Assembly (NCBI GenBank): GCA_031261085.1
Contig: JAISKB010000012.1
Coordinates: forward strand, 1-64,000
Source of the DNA: Christensenellaceae bacterium
GTDB lineage: Bacteria; Bacillota; Clostridia; Christensenellales; CAG-138
Length of the DNA: 64,000 nt
Direction of reading: 5' to 3'
Made by a program: the position numbers and the translations under genes. Of the stretch, positions 24,374 through 33,692 are shown in pieces; within the stretch, counting starts at the first letter, position 1; every line of letters begins with the position of its first letter. The notes below the pieces were generated by a model. That model worked only from the letters and a program-made list of their open reading frames with translations. It was not told where the DNA came from and did no database searches.

Positions 24374-25390
24374 CTACTTCTCCGTTTCCGCCTGCACCTT
24401 TTCGCCCGAAAGATAGATATGAATCGTACCGCTCTCATCGGTGCGCAGGAGCGGTATGCCCTGCTTGCGGAGCTTTTCCAGCGTTTGCGCGTGCGGATGC
24501 CCATAGCTGTTGCCCGCCCCGACCGATGCGATGACCAGCGAGGGGTTGACGGCGCGCAGGAACGCATCGGTGGTGGAGGTGGAGCTGCCGTGGTGCCCCA
24601 GGCAGAGCACGGTGGCGGCAAAGCGGGCCCGCGACAGGTTGGCGAGCATGGCTTCCTCGGCATGGGCCTCCGCATCCCCCGTGAGCAGTATAGCGGTTTT
24701 GCCATAGGTCACGCGCAGCACGATGCTCCAATCGTTCAGGTCCTCGTGCCGCACATTTTTTAGCGGCGAAAGCACATCCACCGTAACGGTGGAATCCCAG
24801 TCGAGGGAAACATCCTTGCCGCCATACGCGGCATAGGTGGGGCCGCTGCGCCTTTCGAGCGCGGCCAGCATGCTTTCGAAAGTGGAGGTGGTGTTTTCGA
24901 CATCGGGCATATAGAATGCCCCTATTTCAAAATTATCGATGATATCGGGCATGGAGCCGATATGGTCGCTGTCCGGGTGGGTAGCCACCACGACATCCAG
25001 CTTTTTGACGCCCTGCTTGCGCAAAAACGCGGCGATGGCGGGGTAATATCCGCGCTCCCCGGCATCTATCAGCATGGTGCGGCCGGCGGGAGAGCGCAAA
25101 AACGTGCAATCGCCCTGCCCAACATCCAGCACATACGCATGCAGCCCATCCTGCGCGGTGATATCCCCCGAAACGAATACCGGCCCGCCCGGCGTGGGCG
25201 AGGGGGTGGGCGCAAGCTCCAGCTGCGGCAGCTTATCCACAATGCCCAGCAGGTAGCGGAAGGCATCCAGCGGCTGCACGTTGTGCTGGGCGCAGTATAC
25301 AAAGGTGACAAAGCCCAGTATGATAAGCAGCACCAGCAGCTTAAACAGCGCTGACCTTCGCTTTTTGGCGGATTTCCTTTTCTTATCCAT
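24374..25390 (-). CDS. ComEC/Rec2-like MBL-fold hydrolase with N-terminal TM
   Basis: LDVGQGDCTFLRSPAGRTMLIDAG; ATHPDSDHIGSMPDII; LGHHGSSTSTTDAFL. Confidence 0.85.
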   Translation of the reverse strand: MDKKRKSAKKRRSALFKLLVLLIILGFVTFVYCAQHNVQPLDAFRYLLGIVDKLPQLELAPTPSPTPGGPVFVSGDITAQDGLHAYVLDVGQGDCTFLRSPAGRTMLIDAGERGYYPAIAAFLRKQGVKKLDVVVATHPDSDHIGSMPDIIDNFEIGAFYMPDVENTTSTFESMLAALERRSGPTYAAYGGKDVSLDWDSTVTVDVLSPLKNVRHEDLNDWSIVLRVTYGKTAILLTGDAEAHAEEAMLANLSRARFAATVLCLGHHGSSTSTTDAFLRAVNPSLVIASVGAGNSYGHPHAQTLEKLRKQGIPLLRTDESGTIHIYLSGEKVQAETEK

Positions 25391-25814: not shown

Positions 25815-27026
25815 ATGTACAAACAAAAAAGGCTACTGGCGTGCGCCCTGGTGCTGGCAATGCTGCTGGTTTGCGCGTTCCCGATGACGGCGGCGGCGAC
25901 ACTGAATATGACATTGCCTGTGTCAGGCACACCAACGATTACGCTTTCTAAGGGCGGCTCTGCGAGTGAGAGCGACCTGCTGACGCAGGCGGATAGCCAG
26001 ATTCTCGATTTATCGTTCGAACTGGATTACAGCAACCTTAATACGCTTGTGAGTGGCGTTGTAGCCTCGGGTGGCCCAGCGGCGGCAATGTTCAGCGACG
26101 CTGCGCTCATATCGGGCACATTTACCGCCACAGTCACGTTAGATTCTAACATTACAGTAAACACGAGCGCCCTTCCTACCGGCGGGGCTGCGTTGCAGAA
26201 TTTGATTTCCAGCAACTTACAAACAATTTTTACCATCGACAGCATAACCTATAATGCTGTACCGAATACAATTACCGGTGTAGCTAGCCTAAAACCGGGA
26301 GTAACCGGGGGTGATCTTAATACTGCAGCTATGATTACGGAATTGTCGGCGATGGAATTCAACTTGCCTGGCGCGCTGACGGTGGCATCTACGGCATATG
26401 ATTCGCCGTATGCTTCTCCTGCTGTATCGCCTGCGGTCACAGTTACCTCGGAAGCTGATTGGGAGATACGTATTCCTCCTATTTTTGGCATCCTTGCTCC
26501 TACTCTTGTAGGTCAACTTCTTGACATAACCAATGATTCTTCTTCTTCGTTGCCTTATGTTACCAGCGTTACCACTGGCGGCACGATTAACGACCCAATC
26601 ATTCGAGCGCATATGAACATGAACACCGAGAACCAAGATTTATACCTGGGCGGCAGGGTCGTTACGCAGTACCAGAACGCTGCAGGCGGCACGCTTTCGG
26701 CTTCTACTACGCAAACGCTGGAGTTAGGTGCTGGTTATTCCACTACACCAAAGAATATTTCGGGCTATACTTTGAGCGCGACTCCCTCTAATGCTAGTGG
26801 CACCACAACGGCTGCTACCACGACGGTCACCTATGTATACACCAAAAACCCCGGCGGCGGCGGCGGTGGCAGCTGGACGCCCACCGCTACCCCCACCCCC
26901 CTGCCCCTGCCCGTGCAGCCCCCCAAAACAGGCGGCAACGCAAACACGGTTTGGTTGCTTTGCCTAAGCTGCGGCGCGGCCATGGCACTGGCTTGCACGG
27001 CGCTTCGCAAAAAGCAGGAAAATTAA
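25815..27026 (+). CDS. PPKTG-anchored surface protein with MucBP-like domain
   Basis: Signal peptide MYKQKRLLACALVLAMLLVCAFPMTAAA; MucBP-like VVTQYQNAAGGTLSASTTQTLELGAGY...TVTYVYTK; LPVQPPKTGGNANTVWLLCLSCGAAMALACTALRKKQEN. Confidence 0.75.
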   Translation: MYKQKRLLACALVLAMLLVCAFPMTAAATLNMTLPVSGTPTITLSKGGSASESDLLTQADSQILDLSFELDYSNLNTLVSGVVASGGPAAAMFSDAALISGTFTATVTLDSNITVNTSALPTGGAALQNLISSNLQTIFTIDSITYNAVPNTITGVASLKPGVTGGDLNTAAMITELSAMEFNLPGALTVASTAYDSPYASPAVSPAVTVTSEADWEIRIPPIFGILAPTLVGQLLDITNDSSSSLPYVTSVTTGGTINDPIIRAHMNMNTENQDLYLGGRVVTQYQNAAGGTLSASTTQTLELGAGYSTTPKNISGYTLSATPSNASGTTTAATTTVTYVYTKNPGGGGGGSWTPTATPTPLPLPVQPPKTGGNANTVWLLCLSCGAAMALACTALRKKQEN

Positions 27027-27549: not shown

Positions 27550-28590
27550 ATGTACAAACAAAAAAGGCTGCTGGCCTGCGCCCTGCTGCTGGCAATATTG
27601 CTGGTATGCGCGTTCCCGATGACGGCGTTTGCGGCGGCATTTGTAGGCGCTGAGCAAACCGTGAACGGCGTGCCGGAAATTAAACTTACCATGGTTCAGA
27701 ACAGCAATGTGAACGCTGCGGGCGGCCCGCTCCTGTGGGAGTATGGCAATAAAGCCCTCGATTTGGAATTCACGCTCAATTTCAGTGATATTGCCCCCGT
27801 TGTGCAGGGCGTTGCGAATGCTACAATACCCCTAACGCCTGATTTCTCGGCACATCCCTCCTATAGCCTGCTAACGAACTCGATAAGCGGGTTCAGCGGC
27901 GTCGCCCTCATATCGGGCACGTTTACCGCTACGGTAACGCTGAGTTCCAACCTTACCGTAAACCAAAGCGTCCTCGATTTGACAACATTACCGCCGGGAG
28001 ACCCTGGGTTGCAGGCCTTGCTTACCAGCCAAGATTTGAGGGATGTTTTTCAGGTGGAGAGCATAAGCGTTGTTACCACCGGCAACCCAACGATTACCGG
28101 CGTGGCCAGCCTTAAACCGGGTGTAACGGGGAGTACCCTTAACAACGCAAGCATATTGGGGCCGCTGACGGCGATGACCTTCAGCTTGCCCAATGCGCTC
28201 ACTGTGAAACCCGCTATGTATAATTCCGCACCGCTGGTGAACAATGCGGTTAAGGTTGATTCGAGCGCCGAATGGGGTATGAGTGTCCCGGGGAACCTTG
28301 CTCCTACTGTGGAAAATCTACTCTTCTATACATTCGGCGTTCCCCGCCCTTTAGATAATGCTCCGTTTGTAGCGCTCCCCATGAAGATGGGGGTGGGCGA
28401 AAAGGAACTGTACTTGGGCGTAAGAAACGACGACGATGATGATGACGACGATTGGACGCCTCCCACGCCCCTGCCCTATCTGCCCCCCAAGACCGGCGGC
28501 AGCGCCAACGCGGCTTGGCTGCTTTATATAGCGGGCGGCGTTGCCATGGTATTGGCTTGCACGGCGCTTCGCAAAAAGCAGGGGAATTAA
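27550..28590 (+). CDS. PPKTG-anchored surface protein, paralog of 25815..27026, with Asp-rich stalk
   Basis: Near-identical signal peptide; shared ALISGTFTATVTL...TITGVASLKPGVTG region; DDDDDDDDW then LPPKTGGSANAAWLLYIAGGVAMVLACTALRKKQGN. Confidence 0.75.
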   Translation: MYKQKRLLACALLLAILLVCAFPMTAFAAAFVGAEQTVNGVPEIKLTMVQNSNVNAAGGPLLWEYGNKALDLEFTLNFSDIAPVVQGVANATIPLTPDFSAHPSYSLLTNSISGFSGVALISGTFTATVTLSSNLTVNQSVLDLTTLPPGDPGLQALLTSQDLRDVFQVESISVVTTGNPTITGVASLKPGVTGSTLNNASILGPLTAMTFSLPNALTVKPAMYNSAPLVNNAVKVDSSAEWGMSVPGNLAPTVENLLFYTFGVPRPLDNAPFVALPMKMGVGEKELYLGVRNDDDDDDDDWTPPTPLPYLPPKTGGSANAAWLLYIAGGVAMVLACTALRKKQGN

Positions 28591-28649: not shown

Positions 28650-28794
28650 GCGTGCGCATAAACGGCCAAAACGGCCATTTTTTCGGGCATTGACATAAAG
28701 CGATAAAAAATATAGAATAGTGAAGTGATTTTTCTGCGATTTTTGCAGTATTATGAAAGGCGGGCATACTTTGCCGCCGGGAGGACTTATAAGC

Positions 28795-29016
28795 ATGGAT
28801 GATTTTTCGCGCTTGCGCGAGCTGGTGCACGACATCACGGGCGTGCCGACCGAGCTGATTACGCCGGAATCCACAGCGGAGCAGCTCAATATGGATATGC
28901 TGGATATCACCGAGCTGGTGATGGATATCGAAGAGGCGTTCGATGTGCTCATCGAGGATGATGTACACATTCAGGGCATGGGCGACCTGCTGGCGTGTAT
29001 AAAGGTACCGGCATAG
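28795..29016 (+). CDS. Acyl-carrier-protein-like protein lacking the phosphopantetheine serine
   Basis: MDMLDITELVMDIEEAFDVLIEDD aligns to ACP helix II, with DML where ACPs have DSL. Confidence 0.75.
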   Translation: MDDFSRLRELVHDITGVPTELITPESTAEQLNMDMLDITELVMDIEEAFDVLIEDDVHIQGMGDLLACIKVPA

Positions 29017-29019
29017 GGT

Positions 29020-29048
29020 AAAAAAAGAGTGGCTTCGGCCACTTTTTT
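29020..29048 (+). terminator. Intrinsic terminator
   Basis: AAAAAAGAGTGGC-TTCG-GCCACTTTTTT. Confidence 0.85.
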
Positions 29049-29071: not shown

Positions 29072-30142
29072 TTAAGCCTGCGGCCCGCTTGGCGCGGTAA
29101 TGGCGGCGCAGCGCTCGCTGAACCAAAGCGCGCCCACCGCCAGCAGCACCAAAACCCAGGGCAGCGCGGCCAAGGAAAACCGCGCGGCAAGCAACCCTAC
29201 GCAGGACGGCAGCAGCATAACGCCCACGTTGGCGGTGGCCATCTGCAGGCCAATACCGGCGCGCGCATAGGGCTTGCCAAACCGTGCGGGCGTTTCGTGC
29301 AGCATGGCGGGGAAGAAGGGCGCCACCCCCAGGCCGGTGAGCAAAAAGCCCAGCATGCCCACCGCTGTGGGCAGCGGGAGCAGCAGCAATACGATACCAG
29401 CGGCCGCAACGCAGCATCCCAAGCGGATGATGCTTTGCCCGCGCAGCTTATTCGATACCAGCCCCGCAAGCATCCTGCCCACGGTGATCGCGCCAAAGTA
29501 CAGGGCGGCCCAAGCCGCCGCCGTTGCGGAATCCAGCCCCTTTTGCGTCACCAGGTAGCTGGCTATCCAGGTACCGGCGGAGCTTTCCAAGCCCGACATA
29601 CACCCGAGCGCCAGCATGGCGTGCTTTACGCCCGGCCTTTTTAGCGCTTGCCGGTTGGTGACGAGGGGCGCGGCGCTTTCCTCTTGCTGCGCGGCGCCGA
29701 GCGCGGCATGCGGGGCTGCCTGCCATAGGCGGCGGGAGAGTATCAGCGCCAGCACGACGCCGAGCTGCAGCAAAGCGACCGTACGGTAGCCCATGCGCCA
29801 TCCGCCCAAATAGGCTATGCAGGCCGACATGATGAAGGAGCTTAGCGAGGCGCCCAAGCCCCAAAAGCAATGGAGCCAGTTTAAATGCCGGGCCTTATAA
29901 TGCAGCGCCACATAGTTGCTCAAGGCCACGTCGATGGAGCCGCCGCCCAGCCCCAAGGGTATGGCGCACAGGCACACCAGCACCGGCGAGGCCGCAAATG
30001 ATATGCCCAGCAGCGCGAGGGCTGTCATGCCAAGGCTGGCTATTGTGACCCGCACCGTGTGGAACCTGCGCACCGCGCGGGTGCTCAACAGGCTGGCTAC
30101 CACCGTGCAGGCATAAATGATGAGCGATATGTTCCCCGCCAA
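29072..30142 (-). CDS. MFS transporter (5' end uncertain; likely extends upstream, see finding)
   Basis: Multi-TM MFS-like sequence; called start is a TTG inside the transmembrane region. Confidence 0.7.
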   Translation of the reverse strand: MAGNISLIIYACTVVASLLSTRAVRRFHTVRVTIASLGMTALALLGISFAASPVLVCLCAIPLGLGGGSIDVALSNYVALHYKARHLNWLHCFWGLGASLSSFIMSACIAYLGGWRMGYRTVALLQLGVVLALILSRRLWQAAPHAALGAAQQEESAAPLVTNRQALKRPGVKHAMLALGCMSGLESSAGTWIASYLVTQKGLDSATAAAWAALYFGAITVGRMLAGLVSNKLRGQSIIRLGCCVAAAGIVLLLLPLPTAVGMLGFLLTGLGVAPFFPAMLHETPARFGKPYARAGIGLQMATANVGVMLLPSCVGLLAARFSLAALPWVLVLLAVGALWFSERCAAITAPSGPQA

Positions 30143-30722: not shown

Positions 30723-31457
30723 CTACCCAATAAACCCGCCGTCCACGCGCAGCGTTTGCCCGGTAATAAAGCCCGCCTTTTCACCGGCGAGGAACACCAT
30801 GGCCTCGGCCACCTCTTCGGGCCGGCCAATGCGGCATAGCGCGGTACGTTCGGCCAAATCGGCAAGCTCGGCGGGGCTTAGGGCGGCGTTCATATCGGTT
30901 TGGATCACGCCGGGCGCCACGCAGTTCACGCGGATGCCGCTGGGCCCAAGCTCCTGCGCTAGCGCCTGGGTCATGCCGATGAGCGCGGCCTTGGACGCCG
31001 AATAGGCCACCTCGCAGCTGGAGCCGTTCAGGCCCCATATCGAGGCTGTGTTTACGATGGAGCCCCGCTTGCGCGAAAGCATAGCGGGCAGCACGGCGGC
31101 GGACATATTGCGCGCCCCCAGCAAGTTTACATCCAGCAGCCGCTGCCAGTCGGCGGGCGCGGTTTGGTCAAACAAGCCCACATAGGATATGCCGGCGTTG
31201 TTGATAAGCGCGTCCAGCGGGCCATATGCATCCTGCAGGGCCTCTACCATGGCGGCGCAGTCGGCCGGGTTTGCGACATCCCCCTCCAGCGCGGTGGCAA
31301 AGCCGCCAAAGTCCTCTATGGCCTCCACCACCTCATAGGCGGCATCGCGGTTGGTATGGTAGTTGACGCCCACGCGCCAGGCGGCGCGGGCAAACGCAAA
31401 CGCGGCCGCGCGGCCTATGCCGCGCGACGCGCCTGTAATGAGTACATTTTGGGGCAT
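30723..31457 (-). CDS. SDR family oxidoreductase, resembling EF-P 5-aminopentanone reductase (YmfI)
   Basis: VLITGASRGIGRAAAFAFA; NNAGIS; NTASIWGLNGSSCEVAYSASK; VNCVAPGVIQTDMN. Confidence 0.8.
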   Translation of the reverse strand: MPQNVLITGASRGIGRAAAFAFARAAWRVGVNYHTNRDAAYEVVEAIEDFGGFATALEGDVANPADCAAMVEALQDAYGPLDALINNAGISYVGLFDQTAPADWQRLLDVNLLGARNMSAAVLPAMLSRKRGSIVNTASIWGLNGSSCEVAYSASKAALIGMTQALAQELGPSGIRVNCVAPGVIQTDMNAALSPAELADLAERTALCRIGRPEEVAEAMVFLAGEKAGFITGQTLRVDGGFIG

Positions 31458-32717: not shown

Positions 32718-33692
32718 TTATAGGGAGGCTTGCAGTGCCGCGGGCGCGCTTTCGGCCTGCGCGGCCGGCCGCTTCGCCCTCCCGTGGCGTCCCGGGCGCG
32801 CCTTTGCAAAGGCGGCGCGCGCCGCGTCATCGGCCGGGCACAGTGCGCGGCATATGCGGTAGCCCTCGGCGGCGTTCTTTTTCACGCGGATGCGCACCAT
32901 ATATTCGCCGTGCTCCTCACACGAAGCCATGGCCATCTTGCGGTCGCCGCTGAAGGATAGCCATTTGCCGCAGGTCAGCTCCGCGCCGCATTCCGGGCAA
33001 TAAAACTGCCTTGCCGCCATATCGCAAAACGCCTGCGCGCGGGAGGCGAACCCCCGCACGGTTTCGGCGTTGGCCAGCCGCGCCCGCTTGGCCTGGCGCT
33101 TGCGGGGCTCGCGTTTGGGCGGCTCCTGATATTCGGCAAGGCCGCGGGGCATATCCAGTGCGGCGCAAATGCAGGCGGTGCTCTCGGCATCGCTCAGGGC
33201 ATCGTGCGCGCGGCCCACAAAGGGCAGGGCCAGTTTTTCCATAGCGGTGGCCAGCGCCCACTGCCTGTTTTCCTGCGCGATTTGGGCGTCGAACACGCGC
33301 TGCAGGTCATATACGGGGGGTAAAAACGCGGTATCCATGCCGTGCAGCACAAGGTTTTCCCGCAATATGGGCATATCGTCCCGTCCCCAGGTGATAAAGC
33401 AATAATCCGCCCCACCGCACCAGTCGAAAAACCGCGCCATGGCCTCGGCAAACGGGAGGCCCTCTTTAAGGCGCGCGTTGCTCAGGCCGGTCAGCCGCTT
33501 TACCAGGCTGTTCATGCGCACATAATGCACCGGCCGTATAAAAACTTCAAACGAATCGAGCGCCGCAAAGCTTTCATCCAGCATAACCGCGCCCAGCTGC
33601 ACGATTTCGCCATGCAAAAACAAGGGCGCTTTGATGATCTTTTCCTTTGTGACGGCTTGGTTCCACTCCATATCGAATACAACATATCGCAT
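32718..33692 (-). CDS. DEDD-type 3'-5' exonuclease family protein with C-terminal Cys-containing extension
   Basis: MRYVVFDMEWNQ; HDALSDAESTACICAAL; CPECGAEL. Confidence 0.8.
   Translation of the reverse strand: MRYVVFDMEWNQAVTKEKIIKAPLFLHGEIVQLGAVMLDESFAALDSFEVFIRPVHYVRMNSLVKRLTGLSNARLKEGLPFAEAMARFFDWCGGADYCFITWGRDDMPILRENLVLHGMDTAFLPPVYDLQRVFDAQIAQENRQWALATAMEKLALPFVGRAHDALSDAESTACICAALDMPRGLAEYQEPPKREPRKRQAKRARLANAETVRGFASRAQAFCDMAARQFYCPECGAELTCGKWLSFSGDRKMAMASCEEHGEYMVRIRVKKNAAEGYRICRALCPADDAARAAFAKARPGRHGRAKRPAAQAESAPAALQASL

Follow-up and report, generated by a model that had tools for sequence, protein, structure and literature searches.

Gene content of the locus

The window examined in the present study, a 64,000-nucleotide stretch of a Christensenellaceae contig (JAISKB010000012.1, positions 1 to 64,000, assembly GCA_031261085.1), carries on its forward strand a free-standing paralogue of acyl carrier protein (ACP), hereafter pseudo-ACP (28,795–29,016). 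The intact open reading frame runs from an ATG start codon at 28,795, preceded by a good Shine-Dalgarno sequence (GGGAGGAC), to a TAG stop codon at 29,014–29,016, and specifies 73 amino acids (MDDFSRLRELVHDITGVPTELITPESTAEQLNMDMLDITELVMDIEEAFDVLIEDDVHIQGMGDLLACIKVPA). A reverse-strand gene upstream (24,374–25,390) encodes a metallo-beta-lactamase-fold (MBL) protein resembling the C-terminus of ComEC, with a hydrophobic N-terminal segment, and is the divergent neighbour of the pseudo-ACP gene in many relatives. Downstream, also on the reverse strand, lies an SDR of the FabG/YmfI (EF-P 5-aminopentanone reductase) type (30,723–31,457), which scores 237.7 bits against a FabG subfamily (cut-off 222) and 232.5 bits against YmfI (cut-off 238). 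It is 1.7 kb from the pseudo-ACP gene in the window and its direct convergent neighbour in several relatives. The first-pass annotation had noted no fatty-acid genes alongside; this holds in that there is no fab cluster, but has to be qualified for the FabG/YmfI-like SDR.

The congeners and several other genera have the pseudo-ACP gene flanked by the divergent MBL gene and, often, by the convergent SDR gene. These neighbours are set apart in the window by an MFS-type transporter, which lies between the pseudo-ACP and SDR genes, and by two duplicated surface-type proteins. The transporter gene (29,072–30,142, reverse strand), assigned by sequence character, is absent from that site in the congeners. 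The signal peptides of the two tandem paralogous secreted proteins (25,815–27,026 and 27,550–28,590, forward strand) are nearly identical (MYKQKRLLACAL...), and the C-terminus carries a sortase-like PPKTGG motif with a hydrophobic tail. The two genes are inserted between the MBL and pseudo-ACP genes relative to congeners G001 and G002. A functional link between pseudo-ACP and the MBL protein was considered and rejected: the MBL gene is found in most genomes of the taxonomic family irrespective of the ACP paralogue, so the adjacency is ancestral and provides no evidence for joint function.

A small P-loop protein of ~135 amino acids is encoded upstream of the pseudo-ACP gene in genus g25 (loci L069, L070, L071, L072 and L073) and in G012 (L079). 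Its motif reads GVGKS in G012 and GDGKT in the genome of the window (G000). At the g25 loci read it has become GEGM, without the Walker lysine, and the protein there adjoins an often Ser-less ACP, so that two neighbouring genes lack their key residue. A link between the two was likewise rejected, as the P-loop protein is nearly universal in the taxonomic family and unlinked elsewhere. The window further contains an exonuclease-like (DEDD-type) reading frame with a basic C-terminal tail (32,718–33,692, reverse strand). Judged by its gene content, the organism would belong to the Bacillota and probably to the Clostridia.

An ACP homologue without the phosphopantetheine serine

The predicted protein matches the PP-binding domain PF00550 with 29.2 bits, above the gathering score of 20.8, and by this measure is related to ACP well beyond what chance would give. 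Its best match to an NCBIfam ACP subfamily reaches 42 bits (E = 7e-11) against cut-offs of at least 66, and every ACP-specific NCBIfam cut-off is missed (for TIGR00517, 36.6 vs 70.45 bits). The structure predicted from the single sequence was of low confidence (pLDDT 58) and was not taken into a fold search, although its helices fell at the expected places.

The DSL motif of the window protein reads D-M-L, the codon at the phosphopantetheine-serine position being ATG (Met35; 28,897–28,899, forward strand), as read from the sequence and from the aligned codons of relatives. The initial description of an ACP-like protein with methionine in place of the phosphopantetheine serine is thus confirmed, and the DSL serine that characterises a functional carrier ACP is missing. 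The genome is a draft in 28 contigs, which leaves some room for Met35 to be a sequencing or assembly error, or for the reading frame to be no gene. A sequencing error is nevertheless very unlikely because no serine codon lies closer to ATG than two base changes and the same position in a congener of the window is leucine (TTG). Furthermore, a second, independent methionine occupies the position in family member G110, and the ribosome-binding site, promoter and terminator are all conserved. We consider the probability of this explanation to be negligible.

Replacement of the DSL serine by threonine is already sufficient to prevent modification of ACP by both AcpS and Sfp (PMC9542644), so no group should be attachable to the replaced residue, in support of the earlier claim that the protein cannot be a normal phosphopantetheine carrier. 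A carrier bearing its group on a residue other than position 35 could be envisaged from the presence of Ser26, Thr27 and Thr39, but none of these stands in a D-S-L context, the failure of the threonine substitution argues against it, and the members with Arg, Gln or Leu have no substitute serine at the start of helix II. Such a carrier is therefore highly improbable.

One further PF00550 domain was detected in the 2.2-Mb draft genome and belongs to a canonical ACP (LKADSLD), whose gene is flanked by plsX and rnc, with smc and ftsY coming next (names from reading translations). The genome also encodes one holo-ACP synthase (AcpS). With a canonical ACP and AcpS present, the carrier job is covered elsewhere and the window protein is a second, dispensable-looking ACP.

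Distribution of the family and repeated serine loss

A search of relatives, extended with an alignment to the whole taxonomic family, gave a bimodal score distribution, in which ~30 loci reached at least 73 bits and most ordinary ACPs stayed under 60 bits. Family members share a loop after helix II that is two residues shorter. At order level (347 genomes) and class level (391 genomes), profile searches recovered no comparable members beyond the taxonomic family of the window, and the outside matches, among the sequences read, were only ordinary Ser-bearing ACPs. A scan of genome contigs returned only two distant ACP-like sequences, both in planctomycete records. On the evidence of these searches, pseudo-ACP represents a free-standing ACP paralogue family confined to the window's taxonomic family. 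Its presence there is patchy, the gene being absent from many genera, which indicates that, at that scale, what it does can be dispensed with. A literature search for Ser-less ACPs, with subscription papers largely outside its coverage, returned no directly relevant report.

The serine position was read in 32 family members and is occupied by Ser in 18, Leu in eight, Met and Arg in two each, and Gln and Thr in one each. The methionine, whose conservation among orthologues had been put forward for checking, is therefore not conserved (2/32). Even the three species of the window's genus differ, with Met (ATG), Leu (TTG) and Ser (TCC), and a path from TCG through TTG to ATG would take one base change per step. 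At least six changes at this position are needed (five if Thr is grouped with Ser) on a gene tree that was built without the serine column and is short, with many forks unresolved. If the ancestor had serine, the genus labels alone demand at least one loss each in g1, g9, g20, g21 (to Thr) and g25. Serine was most likely present in the family ancestor; as reconstructed from these alignments, it has been repeatedly lost and the position is free to vary. The short tree does not decide on one origin of the family, because the long-branch member G063 groups with canonical ACPs.

Selection after serine loss

Every family member read has an open, intact reading frame. Pairs of Ser-less members gave dN/dS ratios of 0.075 for G111–G114 (six nonsynonymous and 16 synonymous differences; p = 3e-7), 0.14 for G117–G107 (10.5 nonsynonymous, 15.5 synonymous; p = 8e-6) and 0.20 for the window protein and its congener (G000–G001; p = 6e-5). 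Open frames and Ser-less pairs at 0.075–0.20 are not the pattern of pseudogenes. The acidic recognition residues of helix II (E. coli D38, E41 and E47) are also present as D37, E40 and E46: D37 and E46 are invariant in Ser-bearing and Ser-less members alike, and E40 has changed in a single member, to D. Nearly all members retain D50 and F/Y49. The purifying selection after serine loss suggests that the gene is functional without phosphopantetheine.

These observations bear on a simpler account, namely that the family is an ordinary secondary carrier whose Ser-bearing members still serve a side pathway and whose Ser-less members are relics heading for loss. About half of the members do keep serine, presence across genera is patchy, and the dN/dS values of the window's genus (0.20–0.34) lie somewhat above those of g21 (0.03–0.07), whose members mostly keep the serine. 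Relics would, however, not be expected to show the strong purifying selection seen in Ser-less pairs, or to keep their frames intact and their promoters and C-termini conserved, and a search for degenerate ACP-gene copies at the divergent-neighbour (MBL) locus of genomes without the gene found none. On this evidence we judge the relic account unlikely.

Transcription unit and C-terminus

A predicted sigma-70 promoter (TTGACA-N17-TAGAAT, 11/12 matches; 28,690–28,718, forward strand) lies ~105 nt before the start codon, at the same position as in most relatives. Most members, Ser-less ones included, have a near-perfect TTGACA-N17-TATAAT ~103 nt before the start codon; the position is usually about -95 to -109, and -58 in genus g16. 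All positions match (12/12) in G033, in G012 and in almost every g25 member shown, again including Ser-less ones; the window and its two congeners each score 11/12, and the spacer is 16 in G107. No recognisable promoter was found upstream of the G031 and G116 genes. Promoters of this quality suggest high expression of pseudo-ACP.

The 5′ leader of ~70 nt (28,719–28,794, forward strand) may form two small hairpins, although a comparison of three sequences makes this weak. The Shine-Dalgarno-proximal hairpin (28,759–28,778) keeps its pairing in the two congeners despite changed sequence, three species being too few to weigh heavily, and the window leader alone folds no more stably than shuffled sequences. 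The g25 transcripts would start with a strong hairpin, whose stability was equalled by 0–1 of 200 shuffled sequences. Five of its pairs are compensated, which none of 500 shuffles matched; this pattern fits an RNA hairpin and a DNA palindrome equally. In the g25 upstream regions L051–L062, the perfect-consensus promoter runs straight into a T-rich tract and a GC-rich hairpin that shows compensatory changes. The element resembles an attenuator in the leader, a stabilising hairpin at the 5′ end or an operator palindrome. Rfam returned only sub-threshold, chance-like matches at the pseudo-ACP locus.

Directly 3′ of the stop codon is an intrinsic terminator with an 11-bp stem and T-tract (29,023–29,048, forward strand), so the strong terminator of its own attributed to the gene on first reading is real; most relatives have a hairpin/T-tract-like sequence after the stop codon, judged by reading the sequences. 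Promoter and terminator thus bracket pseudo-ACP as a predicted single-gene transcript.

The last codon of the window gene is an alanine codon (GCA; 29,011–29,013, forward strand). Alanine is C-terminal in 28 of 30 members, the remaining two (g16) ending in Cys; all four alanine codons are used and the preceding residues are variable. As background, 9.9% of long reading frames nearby end in Ala, and the relatives' ordinary ACPs that were read mostly end in K, E or N. The tmRNA tag of the genome is GKSNFALAA. Speculatively, the terminal alanine could mark the protein for rapid turnover by a C-terminus-reading protease.

The C-terminus would take on particular meaning if pseudo-ACP were a decoy, that is, an unmodifiable ACP occupying AcpS, acyltransferases or SpoT-like regulators, thereby tuning fatty-acid synthesis, and quickly removed via its Ala tail. 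Partner-recognition residues kept while the attachment residue is gone, a near-consensus promoter, the excess of terminal alanine over background and the ...ALAA ending of the cell's own tmRNA tag would all suit such a protein. Against this, half of the members keep the serine and would be modified, and both turnover and binding to the named partners are purely conjectural. We regard the decoy as decidedly unlikely; it would in any case be a special case of the adaptor or regulator explanation set out below.

Proposed role of pseudo-ACP

Our preferred reading, to which we assign a probability of roughly 60%, is that pseudo-ACP works as an adaptor or regulator by docking the helix-II face on a partner, with no involvement of phosphopantetheine. 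The gene would be transcribed alone from its near-consensus promoter, and the protein would fold as an ACP and stay unphosphopantetheinylated. Its acidic helix-II face would then dock on a partner protein, which would be regulated or scaffolded as a result. The ancestral serine, being unneeded for the retained job, would have been lost repeatedly. That the protein stays unmodified in vivo, and that it acts as an adaptor or regulator, we infer from sequence data of this kind. The proposal of a repurposed regulatory or scaffolding protein is accordingly upheld as regards repurposing, which the selection after serine loss supports, while a regulatory or scaffolding action is suggested by that selection together with the retained helix-II face. 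The adaptor or regulator reading has its limits, since around half of the family keeps the serine and a carrier role may persist in those lineages. A more specific extension, which we offer only tentatively, is that the family is obligately or facultatively unmodified, comparable to pseudokinases, and might regulate the acyl-carrier network as a protein that is abundant and rapidly turned over, with serine loss tolerated or favoured several times since the prosthetic group would have become irrelevant.

In a protein family as well known as this one, pseudo-ACP is a somewhat surprising variant, and a real one; repeated loss combined with continued selection is the best evidence. A practical consequence is that PF00550 matches should not be annotated as carriers unless the serine has been checked.

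Comparison with known systems

Pseudo-ACP resembles type II ACP (AcpP; PF00550) in sequence, length, acidity (net charge about -13), the residues D37, E40 and E46, and helix pattern. It differs in having no phosphopantetheine serine, in the two-residue shortening of the loop after helix II, in its location outside a fatty-acid operon, in its C-terminal alanine and in missing the ACP-specific NCBIfam cut-offs. The D-alanyl carrier protein DltC is likewise a small stand-alone carrier protein in Gram-positive bacteria. Its LDSFGTVELL signature is probably lacking in the pseudo-ACP family. No dlt genes (dltABD) were recognised near the window copy; in G012, a neighbour of the ACP gene has a weak, below-cut-off match to DltB.

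Acp3 of Pseudomonas aeruginosa, likewise an additional ACP with a role apart from fatty-acid synthesis, binds the catalase KatA and inhibits it (PMC6158461), and is similar to pseudo-ACP in outline; organism and partner differ, and Acp3 is not known to have lost the serine. A phosphopantetheine-independent ACP function is that of E. coli AcpP with MdoH, as the synthesis of osmoregulated glucan (MDO) is reported to need ACP but not phosphopantetheine (Therisod and Kennedy 1987, cited in PMC6158461), and pseudo-ACP may be likened to it. Unlike pseudo-ACP, E. coli AcpP also carries acyl groups, and no glucan glucosyltransferase is linked to the window gene. Functions of this type have so far mainly been known as side activities of essential AcpP, where they are hard to part from fatty-acid synthesis. 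ACP is usually characterised by its phosphopantetheine serine, and the pseudo-ACP family offers a clean natural experiment for functions that are free of the prosthetic group.
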